Assembly: GCA_964036665.1 (NCBI GenBank)
Contig: OZ038530.1
Coordinates: forward strand, 14,045,001 to 14,109,000
DNA: 64,000 nucleotides
Direction: 5' to 3'
DNA from: Gordius sp. MW1
Taxonomy: Eukaryota; Nematomorpha; Gordioida; Gordea; Gordiidae
In this document: positions 855 to 32,126 of the stretch, one piece after another
Layout of the letters: the number at the start of each line of letters is the position of its first letter
Position numbering within the stretch: position 1 is the stretch's first letter
Program-made: the position numbers and the translations under genes
The notes under the pieces: generated by a model
Database searches by the model: none
The model's input: only the letters and a program-made list of their open reading frames with translations
Told to the model about the DNA's origin: nothing

Positions 855-1067
855 AGATGTAACTAACCGGGCATTTGGCAGATTGGATTGATATAAACCG
901 TGGGATCGAGCAGGGTTGTTTTAAACTAAACATGGTTTTTAGCAAATTTAATTTTAGCTTACTATTAGAGTTGGCAGCTGACATATAATGCTAATCAATA
1001 TTTTTCAATCATATATTAATCCAAAAATGGTGATAAAAAAATTAAAATATATTATAAAGAACTTTGC

Positions 1068-1290
1068 CCCCCTCCCTTTATTTGTCCCATTGGTTTGCCC
1101 CCCCCCCTTATTTTTCCCGTTTTCTCACCAGAGGGGAGGGGGGGGGGTTGCCCCCACCCGTATTTTTTACCCTCTTTCTCACCAGGGGGGGGGGGGGGGG
1201 GTGTTTTGCCCCCCCCCTTATTTTTTACCCTCTTTCTCACCAAGGGGGGGGCCCCCCCCCCCCTTATTTTTTACCCTCTTTCTCACAGTG
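1068..1290. repeat. Poly-C/poly-G hairpin units (short array)
   Basis: About four units of C-run, TTATTTTTTACCCTCTTTCTCACC, G-run and a short spacer. They are the same unit as the long array at 12735-14350. The open frames here (proline/glycine-rich) are artefacts of the homopolymers. Confidence 0.8.
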
Positions 1291-1325
1291 CCTTTACATT
1301 TAATTAAAAACATTCATATTATATT

Positions 1326-1867
1326 AGAAATATTTTATGTAGCATGCTCGCCGCTAAACTTATATCAATTATTTATATTTAAGATATATAAAATTTTTAA
1401 TGAAAAACAGAGGTAACTATTGTTACAGTCTGTATTAATCTATTTTGCCATCACTTTAAAATATCATTAATAATTTAAACGAAATGCGTAGAAAAAAAAC
1501 GTTTTGAAGATCAGATTTGAGATTTAATAACTATTATTAATTAAGGTTTTAAAGCATAAAAACCTTAATGTCGGCATTTTAAAGTAAAAGGCTTTTATCT
1601 CTTTTCAGTCGAAATATATTTTACAATAACTTAAGTGTGCTGTCTGGCATTAGTTACGATTTTTTTTAAAATGATTAATAGTAATTTTATATGATAAAAT
1701 TTTCTCGGTCTCTCCTATTTCATCTCTCTTTCAATATCTTTTGTCCCTGCTTTCGTCTATAAATAATCTAACTCATCGAAAACAAATTTAATATTTAAGT
1801 TCTATATAAACATGGATCAGGATATAACTCATCGAAAACAAAGTTAATATTTAAGTTCTATATAAAC
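1326..1867 (+). promoter_or_regulatory. Conserved 5' flank of the receptor family
   Basis: This stretch is recognisably similar to the flank of the second receptor (about 25540-25860) and, on the other strand, to 17690-18005 upstream of the dead copy. The best kept block is AAAGTAAAAGGCTTTTATCT (from 1581; from 25777 in the paralogue) followed by CTTTTCAGTCGAAATA. Shared flanks show the genes arose by DNA duplication, not retrocopying. Promoter function is inferred from conservation only. Confidence 0.5.
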
Positions 1868-1881
1868 ATGGATCAGGATAT
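1770..1881 (+). repeat. 56-bp tandem duplication across the receptor start codon
   Basis: Units 1770-1825 and 1826-1881 differ at one base. Each contains the leader and the first codons ATG GAT CAG GAT. The first ATG (1812) opens a frame of only 11 codons ending TAA at 1845-1847; the second ATG (1868) opens the receptor. The duplication therefore created an upstream ORF 20 bp before the true start. Confidence 0.85.
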
Positions 1882-2947
1882 TGTTTTAAGTCAAAAATTG
1901 ACTTCAAATGAAGGCTCCACGCGAAGCTACGTTCTCAACATTTCTCTCTTTTCTATCCTTGTAACATTGGGCATTATAGGAAATTTTAATTTATTAATTA
2001 TAGCCAACATGGTAGAAAAGAAGGTAGCTAAACCTTACTTTGTTATGAAATGGATGGCAATCGGCAACTTTATGATATCTGCAACCTATATTTTAAATCC
2101 TATCCTGAGTTACCATTTAAACCATACCAAAAATTCGCTATTATGCACCCTTGGATGGAATATTGGCGTTCATACCATAAATGTTTTACTACATGCTTGG
2201 CTTAAAAAAGCAAGTCTACTCATGACGTTGCTTCTCACAATAGATAGATATATTGCTGTTTGCAAACCATTTAAATATCGTAGCCCTCAATACGATATAA
2301 GATTTTACAGGTGGGCCGTTTTATTGTGTTATCTAAGCTCTTTGTTCATCAACGTCCCCGTTATATTGAGAAGTTCCACACGTAAAGCTAATCACATAAT
2401 TGATGCAAACCTTTCAAGAAAGTTGAGTATGTGTTTCGATGGTTATTACACGATACGGAATCCGGTCATTTGGAACAATACCTATTACCAAATTTACGAA
2501 ATAGTTAAAGAAATCATTTTAGTATATGGCCCAATGTTAATCATATTGGCCCTGAATATTTCCATATTGCGTCGGTATAAAGCCCGAATAAAAGTCAAAC
2601 CAAGTCCTTTATCTAAAGGTGCAGTTAGGCTAAATAATCACGTGGAATGGAATGCAAACACGCAACTCACGGTGTCATTGGCCATCACTTATATTTTGTT
2701 AATCGTCACACTTGTGCCAATGTCCGTAAAGAGAATTCTTAACAGTTATAACACATGCAACTTAAACAAGCATCAGGCGGAGATAAATATAGCTGAATCT
2801 CTTAATTATTGTCTGAACTTTTATATATATTTAGCATTAAATCGAGATATTCGTACACTCTTCTTAAAAACCTATGGTTTTAAAACAAGTGCATCCAAAT
2901 CAACAACTTTACTCCCTCTTCAATTGCAAACAATATCGCCTATATAA
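1868..2947 (+). CDS. Class A (rhodopsin-like) G protein-coupled receptor, peptide-receptor type
   Basis: This is an intact, intronless 359-residue seven-helix receptor in the plasma membrane, expected to signal through a heterotrimeric G protein. Seen in the sequence: N23 in an NIS glycosylation site, TM1 with the GN motif (N39), C93 at the top of TM3, DRY at 126-128 followed by IAVCKPFKYR, C189 in extracellular loop 2 (the likely disulphide partner of C93), a basic third loop (RRYKARIKVKPSP, 235-247), and a TM7 where NPxxY is replaced by LNFYIY (316-321). Small-peptide or FMRFamide-type receptors are the nearest family impression, but the ligand cannot be told. The start at 1868 is preferred over the upstream ATG at 1812, whose frame closes after 11 codons. 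AATAAA lies at 3006-3011. It is clearly paralogous to 26002-27111. Confidence 0.93.
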   Translation: MDQDIVLSQKLTSNEGSTRSYVLNISLFSILVTLGIIGNFNLLIIANMVEKKVAKPYFVMKWMAIGNFMISATYILNPILSYHLNHTKNSLLCTLGWNIGVHTINVLLHAWLKKASLLMTLLLTIDRYIAVCKPFKYRSPQYDIRFYRWAVLLCYLSSLFINVPVILRSSTRKANHIIDANLSRKLSMCFDGYYTIRNPVIWNNTYYQIYEIVKEIILVYGPMLIILALNISILRRYKARIKVKPSPLSKGAVRLNNHVEWNANTQLTVSLAITYILLIVTLVPMSVKRILNSYNTCNLNKHQAEINIAESLNYCLNFYIYLALNRDIRTLFLKTYGFKTSASKSTTLLPLQLQTISPI

Positions 2948-3545
2948 ATTATTAGTTCCTTTTCATTTGAACAAAAACATATATCTCTCATTTCATTATA
3001 TTAATAATAAATAACTTCGATGTAAATAAATTGATAGCATTATGTCTGCTTTAACATAAATAGAGTTTATGTGAAACATGATATTAGAAATGTTCCTTTA
3101 CTAAAAATATAATTGTAATAAGGGATTTCACATCAAATTCAAAGAATGTAGTGAGGCGTCTTAGTAAAACTTAGTATAGTAACATTTGGAAAACTATATC
3201 AAAACTCCCTCACTTCAAATAAATTAAAATGTGTATCACAGCAAATAAACAGCATGTCAACCATAGGGCGTTCCCAACGAAGGATAAAATTATCACCTTA
3301 AACTGAAGAGGCTAAAGATATTAGTTAACGCACAATTAAGTTTGTGTCAGAATGATAGCTTAGAGCAAGAATTAGCTAAAATCTTTAGGGGGTGAAAAAC
3401 GGATATCGCTTGTATTTAAGAGGCGAAATGGAAAAGTAATAAAGAGTAATGTTTAGGCGATGGGTTCACGCTTTACGCATTGAAATCCTGTAGGTAATGG
3501 TGCTATCAGAAGAATTCTAACAAAGCGTCGTCTACATAAAAAAAA
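2948..3545. other. 3' flank of receptor 1, no further gene
   Basis: Up to about 3110 this resembles the 3' flank of the second receptor (shared 'attatgtctgct' and 'gaaacatgat' blocks). From there to 3545 I see no gene or recognisable repeat. Confidence 0.6.
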
Positions 3546-3904
3546 CTTGGGCCTTCGGCCCTCGTGGGAAGGGGAGTAGAGGAAGGGAAGGGGGGGGGGC
3601 GACTCATCTATACTCCGTATAAACGTAGCATATTTGCTATGCAATTTATGGGCGAGAAAGGTAGAAAGGGGCGAGAATGCCTATAGGGGGGTATTAAATG
3701 CAAAATAATTAGTTATAGACCCTTGTAGGGGAGGGCATAGGGTAATTATCAATGTTAACCAATTCAAAAACGAAAAAAAAAATCCGATTTATTTGGCCAA
3801 TGGTCATTTTTTCCAATGGTCAGTAGCCTGCGGACGATCAAAAAGTCATATTATCAATGATATTAACAAGAACAAAATATTAATTTAATTTAAAAAAAAA
3901 TAAA

Positions 3905-3975
3905 AATTTAGCCCTCTCCCGAGCTTGAACCCGGGATATCCAGGTCACCCTGTTTACAAGCCGTGCGCTTTAAAA
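3905..3975 (-). repeat. tRNA-Thr-like segment within Helentron-like copy A
   Basis: On the minus strand this reads like the 3' two thirds of a tRNA with TGT anticodon (CTTGTAAACAGG) and a B-box CGGGTTCAAGCTCGGG. It matches the better copy at 10911-10990. The 5' part is degenerate, so it is not a working tRNA. Confidence 0.55.
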
Positions 3976-4324
3976 TAGTAGAAGTTATTATGTTATTTAT
4001 ATAGATAATGAAATAATAAAGTTCTGTTTTATGTTTAGAAAATCAATATATTTCATCGGTCAGTAGCCAGCGGACGGTCAAAAAGTCAAATTATCAATGG
4101 TATTAACAAGAACATAATATTAATTTAATTTTAAAGAAAAAAAGTTAAAATAAAAATTCCTTTTAGTTTTAAAAAAGGGCTAAATTCTGAAACTACCCGC
4201 CCGATTCGCTCGAAACTTTACCCGTAGGTGCCCAGGGCGGTCAGGGGTAAAATGGCCTTTTCAGATTTTAAATACCTTTTCGTTTTAAAAATATCGGACA
4301 TTTCCCGGCCACACGTGCGGTGTA

Positions 4325-5285
4325 ATATCTATCAGAGGTCAGAAATGCCCGGCCCGCCCGGCCCGGCCCACGGGCCGGGCCGGGCCGGGCAACTGTCTTA
4401 AGTTTTACTTTTCGGACGGGCCCGGGCGGGCACGCTGATAAGATTCGGGCAATTCGGGCATGCCAAAAATTTTATCAAATTGATTTTCCTCGAAAAAAGA
4501 AAAATTCGCTATGGGCTGATGATGAAGATGATACAGCATTAGATGAGATCAATTCATACTTGAATGATGTTTTAGACAAGGACGTGGATGAAAAATTTTC
4601 CCTTTTAATATGGTGGAAAAATAAAGAAAACAAGTCACATTAAAGTTATCTAAAATTATAACTATTTTAGGTATCCTAAATTAGCAAGATTAACAAAAAT
4701 ACTCTTTGCCATCCCGGCGACGAGTGCTGCAAGTGAAAGAAGTTTCTCTATCGCAGGAAGATTAATAGAGGAAAGACGCACAAGATTATCCCCGAATTGT
4801 CGACGATTTGTTATTTTTACATAATAATTATGAATAATAAAATATTGTCATCTTTGTTCTGAACAATATGCCATTATTTAATGCTTATTTTGTAATAGTG
4901 GTTAAAAGATTTTGGGATTGGATAATTTCTAGTCTAACGGGCAAATTTTATTAATAAGGCCGGGCAGCTCTAATGGTTTGGGCATGGCTGAGCGGACACT
5001 TAGAAGGGTTCAGGCGGGGAATTTAGTTAAAAATTTAGACCGGGCCGGGTGTGGGCAGAAAAATTTTAACAAATCCGACCTCTGTTTGCGACCTCACAAA
5101 TTCGGGTCTAACGGGTAAATTTAATATTTCGGGCCGGGCAATTCGGGCAGCTTTAACGATTCGGGCGGGCCCGGGCGGACACTTAGATGGGTTCGGGCGG
5201 GCTCGGGCGGGCAGATTAATTATAAAATCGGGCCGGGCCGGGTTCGGGCTGAAAAATTCTAACAAATCTGACCTCTGATATCTAT
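4325..5285. mobile_element. hAT transposon remnant with perfect 8-bp target duplication
   Basis: The element proper is 4333-5277. Its ends are CAGAGGTCAGA and TCTGACCTCTG, and the flanks ATATCTAT (4325-4332 and 5278-5285) are identical. CAGNG ends with 8-bp duplications are diagnostic of hAT. Subterminal regions are packed with GGGCCGGGC-type iterons (4350-4470 and 5040-5260). The mirror arm at 10544-10551 holds a single ATAGATAT, the empty site, so the insertion followed the formation of the two arms. Confidence 0.9.
4470..4815 (+). pseudogene. hAT transposase C-terminal fragment
   Basis: Two coding-like pieces remain inside the hAT element. The first (about 4497-4638) is acidic, DEDDTALDEINSYLNDVLDK. 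The second (about 4673-4815) contains LFAIPATSAASERSFSIAGR followed by RLSPN, the classic hAT dimerisation domain. Stops and a gap between the pieces, and the absence of an N-terminal catalytic region in a 945-bp element, show it is an internally deleted, dead copy. Confidence 0.8.
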
Positions 5286-7231
5286 AACACGTAGAAAATT
5301 TTACTAATTATATAAACTTACGCGCGCCATCTAATAAAGTGCAATTCGTGTTTTAATAGTTTAATAGTAGATTGAATTTAATTAGAAAGAACGGGCTATG
5401 ATTATACCTTTGAGGAGGTTTCGTATTTTGTGTTAGTTTCTATCAATATATTGTACCGTAAATTAGAATCTAATACCTATATTTTTTTAACTATTACTTT
5501 TTAGGTTTTCTATGAAATCCCAATCTAATTAAATGAAATATATTAACCCAATAAAAAAATATATATGCATTTATAAGGTTAAAAATATATATTACATAGT
5601 TGGCTGTCTGATAGACCATCTATAATAAATTTTTAGGTTATATATAAAATTTGGCCAATGATCATTTTTTCATTGGTCAGTACCAACAGATACTCTATAA
5701 GTCAATGATAGCCAAAAAAAACGGAAAAAAAATTTTTGATGCTCACTTTGGCCAATGGTCATTTTTTTCCATTGGTCAGCAGCCAGCGGACGGCTAAAAA
5801 GTCATATTATTAATGGTATTAACAGGAACAATCATAAGAGTCAAAAAAACGGAAAAAAAATTTCGATTCACAATTTGGCCAATGGTCATTTTATTCCATT
5901 GGTCAGCAGCCAGGACACGGTGAAAGTGGATATAAATTCATAAGAGTCAAAAAAAAACGAAAAAAAATTTTCGAATCACATTTTGGCCAATGGTCATTTT
6001 TTTCCATTGGTCAGCAGCCAGGACACGGTAAAAGTGGATATAAATTCATAATAGTCAAAAAAAACTAAAAAAAAATTTTCGAATCACATTTTGGCCAATG
6101 GTCATTTTTTTCTATTGGTCAGCAGCCAGGACACGGTAAAAGTGAATATAAATTCATAATAGTCAAAAAAAAAACGAAAAAAAATTGTCGAATCACATTT
6201 TGGCCAATGGTCATTTTTTTCCATTCGTCAGCAGCCAACGGACGGCCAAAAAGTAACAATAGCAATGGTAGTAACAGGAACAATCATAATAGTCAAAAAA
6301 ACGAAAAAAAAAATTTCGATACACATTTTGGCCAATGGTCATTTTTTTCCATTGGTCAGCAGCCAGCGGACGGCCAAAAAGTCTTATTATCAATGGTAGT
6401 AACAAGAATAATCATAAGAGTCAAAAAAAACTCTGGGATTCGAACCCACAAACTAGTTAAATTAATTAAAATTAAAAGTAAACAGCGTGAGAAGACATTG
6501 GATGCGTGACAAGACATTCGGTTCAAGACACCGAAGAGCGTGACAATATATAGATAATGAAACATAGACCCTTGTAGGGGAGGGCATAGGGTAATTATCA
6601 ATGTTAACCAATTCAAAAACGAAAAAAAAATTTCGATTTAAACTTTGGCCAATGGTCATTTTTTTCATTGGTCAGTAGCCAGCGGACGGCCAAAAGGTCA
6701 CATTATCAATGGTATTAACAAGAACAATATATTAAATTAATTTAAAAAATAAATAAAAATTTTGCCCTCTCCGGGATTCGAACCCACATTAGTAAAGGCA
6801 TAGGGTTTGGTAAGGGGCACAGGGAACCATATCAGTAAAGGCATAGGCTTTGGTAATGGGCACAGGGACCCATATCAGTAGAGGCGTAGGCCCTTGTAGG
6901 AAAGGGCATAGGGTAATTATCAATGTTAACCTATTCAAAGACGAAAAAATACCATAAATTGCATATAGCAATTAAAAATTTCGCTTTATTTGGCCAATGG
7001 TCATTTTTTTCATTGGTCAGTAGCCAGCGGATTGTCAAAAATTCATATTATCAATGGTATAACAAGAACAAAATATTAATTTAATTTAAAAAAATTAAAA
7101 AAAAAATCGTCCTCTCCCTGGCTTGAACCCGGGAGATCCAGGTCACAAAGCTGGCGCCAATAACTTGGTGGACGGACGACGGACGACGGACGGACAACCA
7201 AAAACGAGCCCATAAATTGCATAGCAATTAA

Positions 7232-8651
7232 TATTCTTCGTCGAAAGTGAGCCCATTAATGCATAGCAATTAAAAAATGTGGTTATATAAGACATTGACT
7301 CTAATATTATTTTAAAATCTAACAGGGTAGAGCATTCTTAGGCCGATAGGTCTCTTGAATTTGGGACAAAGCCATATATCATAAATCTAAATTTTGTTGA
7401 TCTTTGCACCATTTAAATCATTAGAGTGTTCGACCAAAAATTTAATTTTTTCTGAGTTTTTGGCAAAATAATTGACGCCGTAGGTGTAATTTAGCCATAT
7501 AATATATAAGTGGGACACCCTACAACCCTTTTGATTGGGTGGTAGTGTGATGTTATGCCTTTAGTACCAATTAAAAATGGCTCACTAATTATACGATAAA
7601 ACTGAGTGATAATAGGTTAAATTTTTTAAAAAATCCCCATTACTACGCCTCGCTAAGATCATCTAAGGGAGAAACGTCGTCCAAAGGACTGAGTTTATAA
7701 TTATATATGTGATATCCCAATATGCACTTACACCAATGAACAAAGTTTCTCCACATTTCCGTGGGCCTTTATTTATCCATAGCCACTTTTAACTCCATTG
7801 CCGATATTTACTCCGCTGGGTTTAATGAAGCGGAAAACCCAAGAATAAAATTGAAAAAATAGAGCAGTGAGACGATAGGAGATAAAAGCGATATTGGTTC
7901 AGTGGCGTAACCAAGGGAGGAGGATTGGAAAATTCTCCTTTGATTAATTAATAAATTTTAAAAGAATTTAAGAGAATTTAATGTTGCATAAAGGACTTAG
8001 GCACTTGTATGTACTTTCAAAGTTTATATAAATAATGTCTTCTTAATTAAAGTTTCGACCATCATTAATTTCCCTTTTCCCAAAATCACTTGTTCATTGC
8101 AAAAAAATTAGAATGAGCATCTTCCTCACATTACCTGGTCTACCACACCTGGTAAATAGCAATTTTATAATATATAAGGGAAATTCTCTTCGCCAATCTG
8201 AAAACTTGATTTTTTGTAAATCTTGGTGAATTTTTAGCCAAACATTCTTACTAGGCAAACAATTGTTTAAAAGGATTTTGACATTCAACAAGTGATTTAA
8301 CTTGCAGATAATATTGCAACTCAGATAATATTTATAAGAGATAATGTTGACAAGCAAGATTTATTAGCTAAAGCTAATTAGATAAGCTAATTAGATGTTA
8401 GGTCTAAACCACGATTTGCTAAGAGGCATTCGTACTAATATTTTAACTTGATCCATTGAGGTTTATTCAAATTAACACTTTTTTCCCATTAATCGAATCC
8501 TTCATCATACAAGTTAATAAATGGTTTTCGATAAAAAAAACAAGTTTTAATTAACTTAAAATCGAGTTTAGGTAACGTATCTACAAGCTCCATTCGAAAA
8601 TAATCTTTTTCACCTCGGAGTAATGAAACACAATAGGATATCATTAATCCT
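7232..8651. other. Spacer between the two Helentron-like arms, no gene
   Basis: A second small subterminal-repeat relic sits at about 7250-7265. The stretch 7274-7480 resembles 21850-22060 in the same orientation ('aaaaatgtggttatat', 'acaaagccatat'), so part of the spacer is an old dispersed repeat. I see no convincing coding sequence; the minus-strand frame at 8094-8357 matches nothing I recognise. Confidence 0.5.
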
Positions 8652-10543
8652 TTTAATTGCTATGCAATTTATGGGCTCGTTTTTGGTTGTCCGTCGTCCG
8701 TCGTCCAACCAAGTTATTGGCCCCAGCTTTGTGACCTGGATATCCCGGGTTAAAGCCAGGGAGAGGACGAATTTTTTTTTTTAATTTTTTTAAATTAAAT
8801 TAATATTTTGTTCTTGTTAATAACATTGATAATATGAATTTTTGACCATCCGCTGGCTACTGACCAATGAAAAAATGACCATTGGCCAAATAAAGCGAAA
8901 TTTTTAATTGCTATATGCAATTTATGGTATTTTTTCGTCTTAGAATAGGTTAACATTGATAATTACCCTATGCCCTTTCCTACAAGGGCCTACGCCTCTA
9001 CTGATATGGGTCCCTGTGCCCCTTACCAAACCCTATGCCTTTACTAATGTGGTTCGAATCCCGGAGAGGGCAAAATTTTTATTTATTTCTTAAATTAAAT
9101 TAATATATTGTTCTTGTTAATACAATTGATAATGTGACCTTTTGGCCGTCCGCTGGCTACTGACCAATGAAAAAAATGACCATTGGTTAAAGTATAAATC
9201 GAATTTTTTTTTCCGTTTTTGAATTGGTTAACATTGATAATTACCCTATGCCCTCCCCTACAAGGGTCTATGTTTCATTATCTATATATTGTCACGCTCT
9301 TCGGTATCTTGCACCGAATGTCTTGTCACGCATCCAATGTCTTCTCACGCTGTTTACTTTTAATTTTAATTTAACTAGTTTGTGGGTTCGAATCCCGGAG
9401 TTTTTTTTGACTCTTATGATTGTTCTTGTAACTACCATTGATAATAAGACTTTTTGGCCGTCCGCTGGCTGCTGACCAATGGAAAAAAATGACCATTGGC
9501 CAAAATGTGTATCGAAATTATTTTTTCCGTTTTTTTTGACTATAATAATTGTTCCTGTTACTACCATTGCTATTGTGACTTTTTGGCCGTCCGTTTGGCT
9601 GCTGACCAATGGAAAAAATGACCATTGGTTAAAATGTGATTCGAAAATTTTTTTTTCGTTTTTTTTTGACTATTATGAATTTATATCCACTTTTACCGTG
9701 TCCTGGCTGCTGACAAATGGAAAAAAATGACCATTGGCCAAAATGTGATTCGAAAATTTTTTTTTAGGTTTTTTTGACTATTATGAATTTATATCCACTT
9801 TTACCGTGTCCTGGCTGCTGACCAATGGAAAAAAATGACCATTGGCCAAAATGTGATTCGAAAATTTTTTTTTCGTTTTTTTTGACTCATATGAATTTAT
9901 ATCCACTTTTACCGTGTCCTGGCTGCTGACCAATGGAAAAAAATGACTATTGGCCAAATTAATCGAAATTTTTTTTCCGTTTTTTTTTTACTCTTATGAT
10001 TGTTCCTGTTAATACCATTGATAATATGACTTTTTGGCCGTCCGCTGGCTGCTGATCAAGGGAAAAAAATGACCATTGGCCAAAGTGAGCATCAAAAAAA
10101 AAATTTCCGTTTTTTTTGGCTATCATTGACTTATGGAGTATCTGTTGGTACTAACCAATAAAAAAAAATGACCATTGGCCAAATTTTATATATAACCTAA
10201 AAATTTATTATAGATGGTCTAACAGACAGCCAACTATGTAATATATATTTTTAACCTTATAAATGCATATATATTTTTATTGGGTTAATATATTTCATTT
10301 AATTAGATTGTGATTTCATAGAAAACCTAAAAGTAATAGTTAAAAAAATATAGGTATTAGATTCTAATTTACGATACAATATATTGATAGAAACTAACAC
10401 AAAATTCGAAACCTCCTTAAGGTATAATCATAGCCCGTTCTTTCTAATTAAATTCAATCTACTATTAAACTATTAAAACACGAATTGTCCTTTATTAGAT
10501 GGCGCGCGTAAGTTTATATAATTAGTAAAATTTTCTACGTGTT

Positions 10544-10551
10544 ATAGATAT
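10544..10551. other. Empty target site of the hAT insertion
   Basis: A single ATAGATAT here corresponds to the duplicated ATATCTAT at 4325-4332 and 5278-5285 in the mirror arm. The flanks match on both sides. Confidence 0.85.
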
Positions 10552-12364: not shown

Positions 12365-14741
12365 AAATATAAGTAGTGTTGTTAAAATGCCAAAATGCTA
12401 CTACCATAACCTATGGTAGTAGCATACATCTCGCCCATTACCATCATCATAACCAGCATCATGCTGCTTAATAACCCGGTTGCTATCACTGGCAACCATG
12501 GTTGCTTGGTTGTAAGAGATGTAAGTAACCGGGCATTTGGCAGATAGGATTGATATAACCGTGGTATTGAGCAGGCTTGTTTTAAACTAAACATGGTTTT
12601 TAGCAAATTCAATTTTAGCTTACTATTAGAGTTGGTAGCTGCCATATAATGCTAATCAATATTTTTCAATCATTTATTAATACAAAAATGGTGATTAAAA
12701 AATTTAAATATATTATAAATATGTCCCGTTATTTTGCCCCCCCCCCCTAATTTTTTATCCTCTTTCTCACCAGGGGGGGGGGGTGTTTTGCCCCTCCCCC
12801 CCCTAATTTTTTATCCTCTTTCTCACCAGGGGGGAGGGGGGGGGGGGGGTGCCTAATTTTTTATCCTCTTTCTTACCAGGGGTGAGGGGGGGGGGGGGTG
12901 TTTTGCCCCCCCCCCCCTTATTTTTTATCCTCTTTTTGACGAGAGGGGAGAGGGGGGGGGGTGTTTTGCCCCCCCCCTTATTTTTTATCCTCTTTACCAG
13001 GGGGGAGGGGGGGGGGGGGGTGTTTTGCCCCCCCCCCCTAATTTTTTACGCTCATTCTTACCAGGGGGGAGGGGGGGGGGTGTTTAGCCCCCCCCCCTTA
13101 TTTTTCACCCTCTTTCTCACCAGGGGAAGGGGGGGGGGGGTGTTTTGCCCCCCCCCCCTTATTTTTTATCCTTACTTTGACCAGAGGGGAGGGGGGGGGG
13201 GTGATTTGCCCCCCCCCCACTATTTTTTACGCTTTTTCTCACCAGGGGGGAGGGTGGGGGTGTTTTGCCCCCCCCCCCCTTATTTTTTACGCTTTTTCTC
13301 ACCAGGGGGAAGGGGGGGGGCATGCCCCCCCCCTTTATTTTTTATCCTCTTTCTCACCAGGGGGAGGGGGGGGATGTTTTGCCCCCCCCTTATTTTTTAT
13401 CCTTATTTTGACCAGAGGGGAGGGGGGGGGCAAACCCCTCCCTCCTGATGAACACCCCCCCCCTGGTGAGAAAAAGCGTAAAAAAGAGGGGAGGAGGCAA
13501 AACACCCCCCCCCCCCCTGGTCAGAAAGAGGATAAAAAATTAGGGGGGGGGCAAAAGACCCCCCCCCCTGCCCTCTTGTCAGAAAGAGGATAAAAAATAG
13601 GAGGGGGGCAAAACACCCCCCCCCCCCCCTGGTGAACACCGCCCCTGGTGAGAAAAAGCGTAAAAAATAAGGGGGGGGGGCAAAACACCCCCCCCCCCTC
13701 CCCTCTGGTCAAAAAGAGGATAAAAAATAAGGGGGGGGGCAAAACACCCCCCCCCCCCTCCCCTCTGGTCAAAAAGAGGATAAAAAATAAGGGGGGGGGG
13801 GCAAAACACCCCCCCCCCCTCTGGTCAAAAAGAGGTTAAAAAAAAGGGGGGGGGCAAAACAACCCCCCTCCCATCTGGTCAAAAAGAGGATAAAAAGTAA
13901 GGGGGGGCAAAACACCCCCCCTCCCCCCTGGTCAGAAAGAGGATAAAAAATAAGGGGGGGGGCAAAACACCCCCCCCCCCTCCCCTCTGGTCAAAAAGAG
14001 GATAAAAAATAAGGGGGGGGGGGGCAAAACACCCCCCCCCCCTCCCCTCTGGTCAAAAAGAGGATAAAAAATAAGGGGGGGGGGCCAAACACCCCCCCTC
14101 CCCTCTGGTTAAAAAGAGGTTAAAAAATAAGGGGGGGGGCAAAACACCCCCCCTCCCATCTGGTCAAAAAGAGGATAAAAAATAAGGGGGGGCAAAACAC
14201 CCCCCCCCTCCCCCCTGGTAAGAAAGAGCGTAAAAAATAAGGGGGGGGGGCAAAACACCCCCCTCCCCCCTGGTGAGAAAGAGGATAAAAATTTAGGGGG
14301 GGGCCCCCCCCCCTCCCCCCTGGTGAGAAAGAGGATAAAAAATTAGGGGGGGGGGCAAATAACGGGGCAAATTTATAATATATTTAAATTTTTTAATCAC
14401 CATTTTTGTATTAATAAATGATTGAAATATTGATTAGCATTATATGGCAGCTACCAACTCTAATAGTAAGCTAAAATTAAATTTGCTAAAAACCATGTTT
14501 AGTTTAAAACAAGCCTGCTCAATACCACGGTTATATCAATCCAATCTGCCAAATGCCCGGTCACTTACATCTCTCCCAACCAGCAACCATGGAACTTTAA
14601 TCTGCCATGCTAGTAACCGGGTTATTAAGCAGCATGTGCTGCTTAATAATGATGGTAATGGTAGGAGATATGTGCCTATTACCAGGTTTAGCACTATACC
14701 AGCAGAACCCATTTAGCAGATTAACAACACTAAATATAAGT
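12365..14741. mobile_element. Mutator-like foldback element of 2.36 kb
   Basis: The element is 12375-14731, with 11-bp termini AGTGTTGTTAA and TTAACAACACT, flanked by AAATATAAGT (12365-12374 and 14732-14741). The two copies of the flank collapse to one in the paralogous receptor sequence, so the 10-bp duplication is real. Arms of about 350 bp (12380-12730 and 14350-14715) are inverted copies, and between them lies an inverted array of G/C hairpins that flips orientation near 13440. There is no transposase. Duplications of 9-11 bp and long inverted arms fit a MULE-like foldback; the family call is inference. Confidence 0.75.
12735..14350. repeat. Inverted array of poly(G)-TGTTTTG-poly(C) hairpin units
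   Basis: About 25-30 units of roughly 55-70 bp: CTCTTTCTCACCAG, a run of about 8-14 G, the loop TGTTTTG, a run of about 8-14 C, then TTATTTTTTATC. Each unit can fold into a G/C stem of about 9 bp or more with a 7-nt loop, and each G-run could join a G-quadruplex. Units are in one orientation to about 13440 and in the opposite orientation afterwards. Frames reading PPPLFF or TRGGGG through it are spurious. Confidence 0.9.
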
Positions 14742-14985
14742 AATCGCCAATGACACCGTCAATTGCATGTCCGCATTCCACTTTACGTGATTCTTGGACC
14801 TCGGCAACTGTGGTTGAAGGACTTGGTTTAACTTTTTTACGAGCTTTATACCGAAGTTCTATGGAAATATTCAGTGCCAATATGATTAACCGTGGGCCAT
14901 ATACTAGACTTATTTCTTTTATTATTTCGTAAACTTGGTAATAAATATTGTGCAAAACGACTGGATTCCTTATCGTGTAATAATC

Positions 14986-16077
14986 ATTATACCACATAAA
15001 TTTCATTGTATAAATACGGTGGATTTGGATTGATAGCGTAGGTAGAGGGAAATGGCACGCAATATTTCGGACACTTATAGTCCATCTTCAGGAAAAAAAA
15101 AAAAAAAAAAAAGGAGAAGATGAAGTCTCAAAAAATAAAAATGAAGTAAAGTGATTATAACAACGATGATATAGATACAAAAAAAAAATTACAAAAACTG
15201 GTTATAGCGAGAAATTAACAATAGCGATTGTAGGGATGGATGTTTTTTATAAGAATAGAGTAGATACATATGGAGATAGGAAAAAGGTGCGAAAAAAGTA
15301 AATAGCTAAATAATAAGAGAAAAGGGGGGAACAGAGTTATTTAATATATAAATATAATAACTGTGCTTAACAAATTATAGTTTTGAGTATTGAACGGGTA
15401 GGTAGACATAGTGAATAATATAAAAATATGTGTGGATGTATGGGCTTGTGGTAATGAAATTGGATGGTCGTTAACTCGACTGCCATTCACATAGCGTGAT
15501 ACAACAAAGGAATTTCGTAGAAAGCGTTTTAATCGACCGCGTCAAGCCCAAAAAACAAACAAACAAAATCAACGACCATCCAATTTCATTACCACAAGCC
15601 CATACATCCACACATATTTTTATATTATTCACTATGTCTACCTACCCGTTCAATACTCAAAACTATAATTTGTTAAGCACAGTTATTATATTTATATATT
15701 AAATAACTCTGTTCCCCCCTTTTCTCTTATTATTTAGCTATTTACTTTTTTCGCACCTTTTTCCTATCTCCATATGTATCTACTCTATTCTTATAAAAAA
15801 CATCCATCCCTACAATCGCTATTGTTAATTTCTCGCTATAACCAGTTTTTGTAATTTTTTTTTTGTATCTATATCATCGTTGTTATAATCACTTTACTTC
15901 ATTTTTATTTTTTGAGACTTCATCTTCTCCTTTTTTTTTTTTTTTCCTGAAGATGGACTATAAGTGTCCGAAATATTGCGTGCCATTTCCCTCTACCTAC
16001 GCTATCAATCCAAATCCACCGTATTTATACAATGAAATTTATATAAACGGATTGAAAATTATTGATTATACCACATA
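14986..16077. mobile_element. 1.07-kb foldback element with near-perfect 476-bp arms
   Basis: The arms at 14996-15472 and 15571-16042 are almost exact inverted copies around a 98-bp spacer. The flanks are ATTATACCACATA at 14986-14998 and 16065-16077, a 13-bp duplication, and the receptor sequence is continuous once the element and one copy are removed. The right side carries an extra 22 bp (about 16043-16064) absent from the left. Each arm has a run of about 20 A or T beside TGAAGATGGACTATAAG. No intact coding sequence is present. The long duplication suggests target-primed integration, but the class is unknown. Confidence 0.8.
15947..15973 (+). ncRNA. Hammerhead-ribozyme-like core (tentative)
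   Basis: CTGAAGA fits the conserved CUGANGA box. It is followed by a GGAC..GTCC stem with a short loop and then CGAAA. The mirror copy lies at 15066-15091 on the minus strand. Hammerhead motifs are known in Penelope-like elements and retrozymes. I could not place stem III or the cleavage triplet with confidence, so this is a candidate only. Confidence 0.3.
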
Positions 16078-16667: not shown

Positions 16668-17615
16668 CAAACGATCAGGCGCGTAGCCAGGATTTTCTCC
16701 GGGGGGGGGGAAATTTCCAAAAAAATTTTATATTATTTTTATTTCAACATCAAAATTATAAAATCTGGTATAAAACATAAAGAAAGTCAATATAAAGTAA
16801 TTTCATATTTTTTCCCAGTGTCATCTGGAGTAGGAGCTAATTCCCCATGAATCGCTAATAAAAGTGTCAATCCATTTAATCTATTCAAACGTCATGAAGT
16901 TTTAATTAAAATGTTGTCAGAAATGGGAGAGAAACCATATAATGAGAAATTGAAGCAAGCTGGTATGATCACGATGTTGCAACAGAAGCTGCAACTTTGC
17001 TCACTTATCTACGACAATCTGAATATATTATGCAAGCAATTGCAAAAAAAAGGACCTAGATCTTCAGCAAGTCAGACAGTTAGCAGAAACTTTAGTAATA
17101 GTAGTCGAACCTAAGGCTATGTATGATTTTAAACTTAAGAAATCTCGATATGCAAAGAAAATGAACGGTTTTTGGACAAGAAACAAGTTTTGGCAAATTT
17201 CCAAATAATATTTCCTCCGAAAAATAAATTATAGAAGGATTTCGGCCAAAGAATCCCTTGGCCCTATCGGATTTTAAAATTTTGTAATCTTTGCCCAACA
17301 TCACAACTCTTCTTTACTATTAGCTTTTATAAAAGAAATACTATGTCAAAAAATAGATTAAATGGATGCCTTTTTATAGCATTTTTATTTCAACATTAAA
17401 ATTAAAAAAAGAAAGTCTTTCTAAAATAATTTTATATTTTCTTTTTCCCAGCGATAATATCTCAAGAACTTCATATAGGTGGGAGCTAATTCCAATAAAT
17501 TGCATAGCAATTAATAAGTGTCTTACTTGGTCAGTTACGTTGCACAACTATAAAATATAAACTTTAGATCTAAAATAATTTCCCCCCCCCCCGCATTTAC
17601 GCCGCTGCAAACGAT
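16668..17615. mobile_element. hAT-like element inserted upstream of the dead receptor
   Basis: The element is 16676-17607, bounded by CAAACGAT (16668-16675 and 17608-17615), a perfect 8-bp duplication. Its ends CAGGCGCGTA and TACGCCGCTG are roughly inverted, each followed inward by a G or C run. On the minus strand it separates the receptor N-terminus from its conserved 5' flank at 17690-18005. It carries a coding-like relic but no recognisable transposase. Confidence 0.75.
16911..17180 (+). pseudogene. Unrecognised coding-like relic inside the hAT-like element
   Basis: The frame gives MLSEMGEKPYNEKLKQ and then LQQKLQLCSLIYDNLNILCK. After a one-base shift at the A-run near 17045 it continues KDLDLQQVRQLAETLVIVV and EPKAMYDFKLKKSRYAKKMN. 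The amphipathic, non-repetitive composition looks like real protein. I do not recognise the family. It may be a decayed transposon gene or a captured host exon. Confidence 0.35.
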
Positions 17616-25540: not shown

Positions 25541-26001
25541 AGCTTGCTCGGTGCACTATATATCTTTATCAATTATTTATGTTTGGAAATGGTTAATTAC
25601 TAATTAAAAACTTGGATCATTTATTAATAAGGTGGCATACTCTTTTGCCATCGCATTAAAGTGCTATTAATAATTTAAACGAAATCTGTAGAAAAACCTA
25701 ATTTCAAAAACTATATTTGTGATTTAAAAACATTTTTCTAATTGACCATTTAAAAAACATTAGTGTCGGTAAATTCAAAGTAAAAAGCTTTTATCTCTTT
25801 TAAGTCGAAATACAATTCTCTTTTAGGTGGCATTTTAAATTGTCCGCCATTGGCTAAAGATTTTTTATTGAATCATTAACTCAAAGATATAAATAATGGT
25901 AATTCCTAATCTCGCTCATATTTCTTTCATTCTATGTCGTTTTTCCTACTCTAAACTTTCGCCTACGATTACCCCAACTCATTTAAAACAGCGTTACAAA
26001 A
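25540..26001 (+). promoter_or_regulatory. Conserved 5' flank of receptor 2
   Basis: It shares blocks with 1326-1867: CTTGCTCGGTGCACTATATA, TATTAATAATTTAAACGAAA and AAAGTAAAAAGCTTTTATCT (from 25777). Regulatory function is inferred from conservation in three copies. Confidence 0.45.
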
Positions 26002-27111
26002 ATGAATTATTTTAAATCTCATAAAAACATGGATCCTAAGTATATAGTTTTAAGTCAAACACTTACTTCAAATGAAGGCTTCAAACAAAATTATATACTC
26101 AACATTTCTATTTTTGCCATCCTTGTAACGTTGGGCATTATTGGAAACTATCATTTATCAGTCATAGCGAACATGGTAGAAAAGAAGATAGCTAGACCAT
26201 ATTATTTCATGAAATGGATGGCAATCACGAACTTTATAATATCAGCTACCTATATTTTAGATCCCATCCTGAGTTACTATTTAAACTATGTAAAAAATTC
26301 GATATTGTGCACCCTTGGGTGGAATATTTGCGTGTATACCATAAATCTTTTATTAAATGCTTGGCTTAAAAAAGCCAGTATGCTCATGACGTTGCTTCTC
26401 ACAATAGATAGATATATTGCCGTTTGCAAACCATTTAAATATCGTAGCCCTCGATACGATATAAGATTGTACAGATGGGGCGTTTTCTTGTGTTATCTAA
26501 GCTCTTTGTTGATCAACGTCCCCGTTATATTGAGAAGTTCCACACGTAAAGCTAATCACACATTAGATGGAAACTTTTCGAGAAAGTTGAATATGTGTTT
26601 TGATGGCTATTACACGATAAGGAATCCAGTCATTTTTAACAATACCTATTATCAAGTTTACGAAATAGTTAAAGAAATCATTTTAGTATATGGCCCAATG
26701 TTAATCATATTGGCCCTGAATATTTCTATAATTCGTCGCTATAAAGCTCGTATAAAAGTAAAGCCGAATCCTTTATCCACGACTGCTATTAGGTCCAAGA
26801 ATTATGTAAAGTGGAATACGGACATGCAACTGACGGTGTCATTGGCGATTACTTACATTTTATTAATTTCAACACTTGTCCCTATGTCTATAAAGAGAAT
26901 TCTTAATAGTTATAATGCATGCAACTTAATGAAGCATTATGCTGAAATAAATATGGTTGAATCTCTCAATTTTTGTCTGAGCTTTTATATATTTTTGGCA
27001 TTAAATGGAGATATTCGTAGACTCTTCTTGAAGACCTACGGTTTTAAAACATTTGCAATCAAATCAACATCTTTCGTCCCTCCTCAATTGCAAACAATAA
27101 CTCCTAAATGA
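26002..27111 (+). CDS. Class A G protein-coupled receptor, paralogue of 1868-2947
   Basis: An intact, intronless 369-codon seven-helix receptor. Seen in the sequence: GN at the end of TM1 (N49), C103 and C199 for the TM3-ECL2 disulphide, DRY at 136-138 with the same IAVCKPFKYR loop, a basic third loop (RRYKARIKVKPNP), and a TM7 LSFYIF in place of NPxxY. It aligns with receptor 1 along its length, with most changes in the N-terminus, ECL2, ICL3 and tail. Methionine 10 (26029) lines up with the start of receptor 1 and may be the real start; the longer reading adds nine residues. A peptide ligand is likely from the family look but unproven. Confidence 0.93.
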   Translation: MNYFKSHKNMDPKYIVLSQTLTSNEGFKQNYILNISIFAILVTLGIIGNYHLSVIANMVEKKIARPYYFMKWMAITNFIISATYILDPILSYYLNYVKNSILCTLGWNICVYTINLLLNAWLKKASMLMTLLLTIDRYIAVCKPFKYRSPRYDIRLYRWGVFLCYLSSLLINVPVILRSSTRKANHTLDGNFSRKLNMCFDGYYTIRNPVIFNNTYYQVYEIVKEIILVYGPMLIILALNISIIRRYKARIKVKPNPLSTTAIRSKNYVKWNTDMQLTVSLAITYILLISTLVPMSIKRILNSYNACNLMKHYAEINMVESLNFCLSFYIFLALNGDIRRLFLKTYGFKTFAIKSTSFVPPQLQTITPK

Positions 27112-28010
27112 CCTATTTTCTCCTTCTTGTTCGTTTGATAGAAAACATATAATATTTATGTTCATTACTTAAAAAAGTTAACACCAAAAATGGAAGTAAA
27201 TTGTTATATATTATGTCTGCTTCTATATTTTAACACTAGATATTATGTAAAACATAATGACTTATATCTGTCAATACCCCTTAATAAGACACAAGATCAT
27301 TCTAATGTTAATTTATTTTTAACGTACCCTATGATTTTAACAAAATGTTGAATGTTGAGAATATTTATTAAGGTAAAAATTTTCTTAAATATCAATATCG
27401 TTGTATCACAATGAATTGTTTGTTTCTATCGCGGCCTTTCAATTTGTAAAAGTATCATGTTATGTGGCAGGGTAATAATAAAATAAACTTTTTTGTATTT
27501 AGATATTTATCTTTTATATACCATAAAAAATAGTAAATTTTGACTCATACATTAATTACTAGGACTGTGATAAACATACACATTATCTTGTTTAAGAAAT
27601 ATTTTAAAATTTTAAGAAAATTGGAATTATTTATCGACAATAAAAAACGCATTCGATATTAGCTAAAATTCAATGGCTTCACATCTGCATCGATTCCCTT
27701 ATTTTTCTAATTTGTATTGTACAACACTAAGCGGACTAAAACATTCCCTTTACTATTCTTATTATTATAAATATAAAGTATTAATTAATTTGTCTACATA
27801 TCTTAAAGATGTAGATTAGCGAAATTAGTGATTTTTCTCCTTATTAAGGAATTATCTCAATCTGGATAGAACAACATTCCTAAAATTATCACCTTAAATA
27901 GGGCTTCATAATATAGGATATTATTAAATGTTATTAAACGGTTCCAAATTAGGTTTAAAACAATTCAACTTCAATTTTGTAAACATATAATGCGATGATT
28001 TCTCTCCATT
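27112..28010. other. 3' flank of receptor 2, no gene
   Basis: The first 380 bp or so match the 3' flanks of receptor 1 (partly) and of the dead copy (to about 27490). The remainder is AT-rich with nothing recognisable. Confidence 0.5.
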
Positions 28011-31460: not shown

Positions 31461-32126
31461 GGTATTGATCCGATCCGATCCGAGGGGTTTTTGAAAAATT
31501 TTATATCCATCCGATCCGATCCTAGTTTTTTAAAATCTAAATCCGATCCGATCCGAGTTTTTTAAAATCTAAATCCGATCCGTTCCGAAATTTTTAAATT
31601 AAAATTTTATGAACAGAACTTTTTATTGATGATTAAATTCAAAATACATAAAAATAAGGTATAGCAATTTTAATAGACCCGAAATAAATATAAAATTTTA
31701 TTTGACTAATTCCATATTATCATATAAAAATAATAAAGAATCTAAATTTTCTGGTTTAATTCGCGTTCATCTTTCTTCTAATGTTCTTCCAGCCACCGAG
31801 AAATTTCTTTCCGAAGTAGTAGAGGTTGCAGGTATAGCTAAAACTTTATTTGCCAGCTTATAAAGCTTTGGCAGGATTGTTTGATATGAAACCCACCATT
31901 TCAGCAAATGTTTTTTTGAATCATATTTGCAATCGTCATTTCAAAGATAATTATAAAAAGGTATACTAAAAATTATTAATTTAATTAATTAGAACTTGTT
32001 ATTGTTTATTTTGAATTTAAAATCCGATCCGATCCGACTAAAATAAAATGTTGATCCGATCCTATCCGACTTCCAAAATTAAAATGTTGATCCGATCCGG
32101 ATCGGATTGATCCGTGCACACCTCTA
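31461..32126 (-). mobile_element. hAT relic with GATCC-rich ends
   Basis: Subterminal iterons of ATCCGATCC fill 31465-31585 and 32020-32115. The right end AGAGGTGTGCACGGATC (minus strand) is typical of hAT termini. On the minus strand, about 31905-31770 encodes KLYKLANKVLAIPATSTTSE followed by RNFSVAGRTLEER, a hAT dimerisation domain. The rest of the transposase is gone. No clean 8-bp duplication was found. Confidence 0.75.

Follow-up and report, generated by a model that had tools for sequence, protein, structure and literature searches.

The foldback elements FB of Drosophila and TU of sea urchin have arms of short tandem repeats, and FB has been tied to a Mutator-like enzyme. Both differ from the family described below in the sequence of their units. 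Mutator duplications typically measure 9-10 bp, and the consensus for hAT termini is that of short inverted ends of the form (C/T)A..G.

Tandem repeats in foldback arms have been described for several other systems. Galileo of Drosophila belongs to the P superfamily and has a P-type transposase with a THAP domain (PMC3573991, PMC4168063, PMC3688188). It resembles the present family in its long inverted arms, in the internal tandem repeats of some subfamilies or copies, and in the occurrence of transposase-bearing next to arms-only copies; its arms grow when repeats expand or inner sequence is recruited. Its repeats are different, with a length of ~140-210 bp, and no G/C hairpin units are noted for it. 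Tetris of Drosophila virilis, likewise non-autonomous, is a foldback whose arms contain tandem repeats and whose ends are shared with another element; it has a 220-bp unit and 8-10 bp duplications, and its authors suggest a Mutator origin, the parent not having been found (PMC4079207, which also mentions the foldbacks of Drosophila and sea urchin). Muta1 of Aedes aegypti, which has a Mutator-like transposase, is called a foldback and carries subterminal tandem repeats (9 copies of a 12-bp repeat) beside complex inverted ends (PMC5225508).

The window analyzed here, a stretch of 64,000 nucleotides from Gordius sp. MW1 (C4:14045001-14109000, in a genome of 212 Mb on 12 contigs), contains an element of this general kind. 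An initial sequence-only reading had described it, at 12375..14731, as a foldback transposon built around G/C hairpins in an inverted array, and knew of no named family built this way. The architecture is indeed present at that place. The supposed novelty stood in part: foldback arms with tandem repeats have been published (Galileo, Tetris, Muta1), whereas the open-licence literature searched, in its available parts, yielded neither a hAT-superfamily foldback nor a foldback of G/C hairpin units. What looks new here is the hAT parentage of a foldback combined with the G/C hairpin unit. We consider it highly probable that the element is non-autonomous and belongs, as a young copy, to a foldback family of the hAT superfamily, for which a parent and a history of the arrays can be proposed.

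Layout of the element and its target site

The window copy is a complete and intact insertion at 12374-14732, with inverted termini, arms of ~360 bp each and two opposed arrays of units. The features are listed below with coordinates in the window, strand, and basis.

855..1290, plus strand: truncated relative, made up of a left-arm fragment at 855-1058 (93.6% identical) and a short ACCCTC-type array as seen in the relative L037
11990..12373, minus strand: 3' portion of the 7TM receptor pseudogene that the element interrupts, with its downstream flank (joined-flank alignment)
12366..12373, no strand: target-site duplication, left copy, AATATAAG (8 bp; empty site and duplication count)
12374..12385, plus strand: left 12-bp terminal inverted repeat TAGTGTTGTTAA (532 in the genome versus 60 for the reversed control)
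12374..12735, plus strand: left arm, non-array part (the 326-base query 12375-12700 matches 40 scored places at 96-100%)
12736..13440, plus strand: left array of 12 units, each with linker, G-run, loop and C-run (inner limit approximate)
13441..14357, minus strand: right array with 16 units facing the other way (one flip, near 13440; boundaries approximate)
14358..14732, minus strand: right arm outside the array (identity of 84.7% with the left arm and 90% with the L037 right arm)
14721..14732, minus strand: right 12-bp terminal inverted repeat TTAACAACACTA (sequence and other copies)
14733..14740, no strand: target-site duplication, right copy, AATATAAG (empty site and duplication count)
14741..14998, minus strand: upstream part of the same receptor pseudogene (joined-flank alignment)

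Each unit combines a linker (e.g. TATTTTTTATCCTCTTTCTCACCA), a G-run in which an A often intervenes, a TGTTTTG loop and a C-run. The expectation of about 25-30 units that switch strand in the middle agrees with the count of 28 linkers, 12 in plus and then 16 in minus orientation, with one flip. The inverted arms are 97% complementary between 12507-12664 and 14425-14582, and 84.7% identical when their full non-array parts are compared. The related array that had been noticed at 1068-1290 is real and, together with the arm fragment at 855-1058, represents a truncated relative of the same family.

The window also contains a second large inverted-repeat structure at 5278-10551, the arms of which (5278-7231 and 8653-10551, ~1.95 kb at 93%) include 108- and 128-bp tandem repeats. 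Isolated runs of at least 10 G or C occur 15 times outside the two arrays (e.g. at 16701, 20970, 21509 and 59193), versus ~0.001 expected from base composition, and several of them adjoin GCGTAGCCAGG-like sequence.

The insertion lies, as had been proposed, within a dead receptor gene, a 7TM pseudogene of the 7tm_1 family that it interrupts. Paralogues of the receptor that carry Pfam 7tm_1 are found in the window at 1799-2944 and 25987-27108 and display the empty site: when the element and one duplication are removed, the joined flanks can be aligned with both of them, and no gap falls at the junction (junction-spanning alignments to the regions 26592-27232 and 2428-2997). The empty site alone fits a duplication of either 8 or 10 bp, and the length was therefore decided by the other copies. 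Among the 18 fetched copies with both ends, a T precedes AGTG in all and an A follows CACT in 17, so that the termini read TAGTG...CACTA in 17/18. The T and the A are thus element sequence, the termini measure 12 bp (12374-12385 and 14721-14732) instead of the 11 bp given earlier, and the supposed 10-bp duplication is one of 8 bp. The 8-bp duplication is exact in 17 of the 18 (the exception being L027), whereas a 10-bp reading is exact in just two, the window copy and L011; L013, L014 and L019 have no right end and are omitted from this count. In 6 more short copies the duplication is exact in 4 and has one mismatch in 2. The family shares with hAT elements both the 8-bp duplication and ends of the (C/T)A..G form.

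Size and age of the family

Further copies with the same termini, on the existence of which the sequence-only reading had made its claim depend, were readily found. The left-arm query matched 40 scored places of 433 candidates with 96-100% identity, and the genome contains 55 occurrences of a 24-mer of the left end (0 reversed), 532 of the 12-bp terminus (60 in the reversed control) and 1,389 exact occurrences of a 25-base linker (0 in the reversed control). Since the fetched elements carry 5.1 exact linkers on average, the linker count suggests, as a rough estimate, some 250 elements genome-wide, with which the excess of termini agrees.

The copies studied in detail are 20 of the 40 scored places plus the window copy. 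Their left arms differ by 0.6% on average and by 1.4% at most; since these 21 copies are the best matches to the window, youth and uniformity are overestimated by them, and the family as a whole is evidently older. The left flanks (400 bp) of the copies are unrelated, except those of L013 and L014. The flanks of the latter two are 99.7% identical and they are duplicates of one segment, so that the 21 copies represent 20 independent insertions. L013 and L014 also contain a nested insert (element positions ~1040-3090) that, by eye, reads like a reverse-transcriptase/RNase H retroelement. The left ends of L011 and L012 lie 7.3 kb apart in opposite orientation, and the two copies have an identical unit order, 0 substitutions and different duplications, which suggests local hopping.

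Two observations concern the genome in general. On contig C12 (14.8 kb) lies a cox1 frame whose 7 internal TGA codons are read through by the invertebrate mitochondrial code; together with the 7TM receptors, this suggests an animal. Many nuclear stretches match mitochondrial cox1, one of them spanning the whole profile length; G000:C8:2829490-2830827 is an example.

Transposase-bearing relatives

A pair of inverted termini 7.1 kb apart led to L037, an element of 7,159 bp with the same termini, arms and arrays (8-9 units left, 3 right) that encloses a decayed hAT reading. This reading is itself interrupted, at ~3500-5765, by another element with ends CAGTGGCGTAGC (by eye). The flanks of L037, CCTATAAC and GTATATAG, show no matching duplication. 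A second copy, L038, is 91% identical to L037 over 2.8 kb and has the left end and 3 units, with no right end seen in the 7.2 kb fetched. Its last piece matches the hAT dimerisation domain (Pfam Dimer_Tnp_hAT, PF05699, E 1.4e-19). The core piece of L037 alone (124 residues) matched no Pfam family; in the region of the dimerisation domain, however, L037, which has both ends, is 88% identical to L038 at the DNA level. Pfam searches with pieces of the associated transposases, the N-terminal part of which was not recovered as a single frame, returned hAT and no THAP domain. Given that copies with the same ends carry a hAT transposase, the window element is taken to be a non-autonomous hAT foldback.

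The arms of the window copy are 89.7% (left) and 90.0% (right) identical to the corresponding arms of L037. As these values exceed the 84.7% between left and right, the two arms already differed when the family began to spread. Neither relative pins down the active transposase, because both are broken and their arms are ~10% away from those of the window copy. Among the 150 of 262 candidates that were scored, no intact source was found and L038 was the only close relative of the transposase (83-91%, two pieces); the next best by score was 65% identical, at three equal places that include L039. A comparison of hAT-domain candidates (150 scored of 3,413) with the first 100 of the 532 terminus places gave no pair within 10 kb.

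The hAT family of this genome represented by L039 has arms of at least 2.4 kb that are 93% identical and in which a 119-bp repeat is present in 12.3 and 11.1 copies. It resembles the window family in its hAT transposase, with 65% identity in the core piece, and differs in its 119-bp unit and in the lack of any G or C run of at least 7 in its 4.4 kb. Tandem-repeat arms may therefore be a habit of this hAT lineage. Two window fragments, at 4669-4815 (49 residues) and 31743-31907 (55 residues), resemble the hAT C-terminal region and are 45% and 44% identical, respectively, to the L039 piece.

Several short copies have retained sequence between their arrays. The centres of L020, L023, L025 and L026 match L037 at 869-1117 (82%) and ~1180-1328 (74%) in inverted orientation, whereas that of L022 matches 6459-6604 (89-91%). 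These centres are remnants of the parent element. The inverted ones resemble the recruitment of inner sequence into the arms as described for Galileo. In L013 and L014 the nested insert, which is unrelated, stands in their stead.

Behaviour of the arrays

A strict order of the units was seen throughout. In all 21 copies every plus unit (9-16 per copy) precedes every minus unit (9-29), and the 9 mixed-sign clusters among the first 100 of the 1,389 linker places are arranged likewise. The order also holds, with a stricter unit pattern, in L037, L040, L042, L043 and L044; in L037, L042 and L043 a looser pattern gives stray matches within arms or transposase, which disappear with the stricter one. 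When the units are compressed to barcodes, several groups of copies have their order in common, L027 being short of three units.

In L016 the outer six units of the right array follow the left array (with unit 2 altered) and the inner ones are those of the usual right array. Its right arm is of the right type at the informative columns 12-95 and of the left type at 4/4 columns from 246 to 340, which places the start of the copied tract between columns 95 and 246. Left-type sequence has evidently been copied into this right arm, the donor being either its own left arm or another copy.

The lengths of the long G/C tracts vary between copies that are otherwise nearly identical. L011 and L012 have 0 substitutions in 1,047 compressed positions, yet 17/57 G/C tracts differ versus 0/34 A/T tracts. 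For L020 and L025 the numbers are 0 substitutions in 1,820 (7 gap columns), 49/98 and 1/70, and for L013 and L014 they are 2 substitutions in 2,739, 43/84 and 1/69. The same trend was found for L016/L028, L017/L028, L020/L023 and L009/L021, with 25, 4, 2 and 38 substitutions, respectively; L017 versus L018 was left out because an insert in L018 spoils the alignment. These differences reflect either fast mutation or homopolymer read error.

Taken together, we propose the following history. In the parent, the transposase gene would have lain between two hairpin arrays inverted to each other, with an arm on the outer side of each. Once the gene was lost, the two arrays would have come to stand face to face, with the single flip as a result, and some subfamilies may have kept a piece of the inner flank of the parent, in one group inverted. 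A hAT transposase acting in trans would cut at TAGTGTTGTTAA and TTAACAACACTA and insert the element with an 8-bp stagger. At transposition the arrays are passed on unit by unit, as the shared unit orders show, and would be altered later by deletion or duplication of units, by fast change of G/C run length and by copying between left- and right-type arms.

Role of the hairpin array and alternative explanations

As to the statement that each unit can form its own stem, DNA folding of five stretches of the window, each 60-64 bases long, gave z-values of -4.6, 0.0, -2.1, -1.5 and -2.4. The larger stretch 12700-13450 folds with a z of -5.9, none of 20 shuffles being equally stable. The predicted G-quadruplexes are likewise plentiful by motif count (9 in the element versus 16 in the other 61.6 kb of the window), but their abundance is a consequence of the G-runs and is no evidence of a function. 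Selection on the stem or the quadruplex itself, for instance as a replication block or as a cruciform that promotes excision, could explain such stable stems and frequent motifs; it would not predict the stretch with z ~0, nor the run lengths. Within the 425 hairpins with the loop TGTTTTG, the G-run and the C-run are equal in 7.1% (8.6% in permutations), and their correlation (rho 0.085) was reached by 54 of 1,000 permutations. Co-evolution of the stem lengths was rejected accordingly, as the runs within a unit matched no better than chance, and we hold selection on these structures to be improbable. The main rival to a passenger array is, because of Galileo, that the transposase binds or synapses at the repeated units, as has been reported for the Galileo repeats (PMC3688188). 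Arrays are present in 21/21 top-matching copies and in both transposase-bearing ones, the loop TGTTTTG is retained in 425/592 hairpins, and the 65%-identical hAT family also has arms of another tandem repeat. However, the arrays start ~360 bp from the ends, and ends and unit have no word of at least 6 bases in common, the longest being GTGTT/AACAC at 5 (a weak test). Moreover, L041 consists of arms only (of the older type) and has an exact 8-bp duplication, which suggests that the array is not essential, although it could have lost the array after insertion. L045, which retains ~50-60 bp at its left end and an array on one side only (minus units), has an exact duplication as well. On balance a role as binding sites seems rather unlikely. 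In view of the duplications of L041 and L045, the unmatched run lengths and the lack of a common word of at least 6 bases, we favour, within the hAT reading and with fair though limited confidence, that the hairpin array is a passenger, which would be tolerated and self-expanding and would not be a required part.

A Mutator-type foldback, as Muta1 is and as was proposed for Tetris, might be expected from the statement that most foldbacks belong to Mutator (PMC4079207) and from active Muta1, itself a foldback with subterminal tandem repeats. The duplications of that superfamily are given as 8-10 bp, so that the 8 bp of the window family, at the edge of this range, would not decide alone (PMC5225508). 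Nevertheless, the transposase between or beside the same ends is of the hAT type, and the duplication is 8 bp in 17/18 copies whereas 10 bp fits only 2/18. A Mutator origin was rejected on the basis of the associated transposase and we give it very little credence. The variation of G/C run lengths between otherwise identical copies could also be thought to betray an assembly artefact, with collapsed or mis-joined homopolymer reads. Yet copies at independent sites, with different duplications and, L013/L014 excepted, unrelated left flanks of 400 bp, agree in their unit order, which makes such an artefact hardly conceivable. A much wider generalization of the hAT reading, which we put forward as a doubtful speculation, is that a hAT lineage of this genome repeatedly builds foldback arms from tandem arrays, with the unit of the present family as a hypermutable G/C hairpin that would drive arm growth and copying from arm to arm, would turn each copy into a self-rearranging barcode and would offer the transposase many binding sites.

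Significance

Through the transposase-bearing relatives, the foldback architecture becomes tied to hAT, beside the cases of P (Galileo) and Mutator (Muta1). The dozens of recent copies with readable barcodes make the gain and loss of units, the instability of G/C runs and the exchange between inverted arms directly measurable. In this family, G/C-rich hairpin DNA is seen spreading in an A+T-rich genome.
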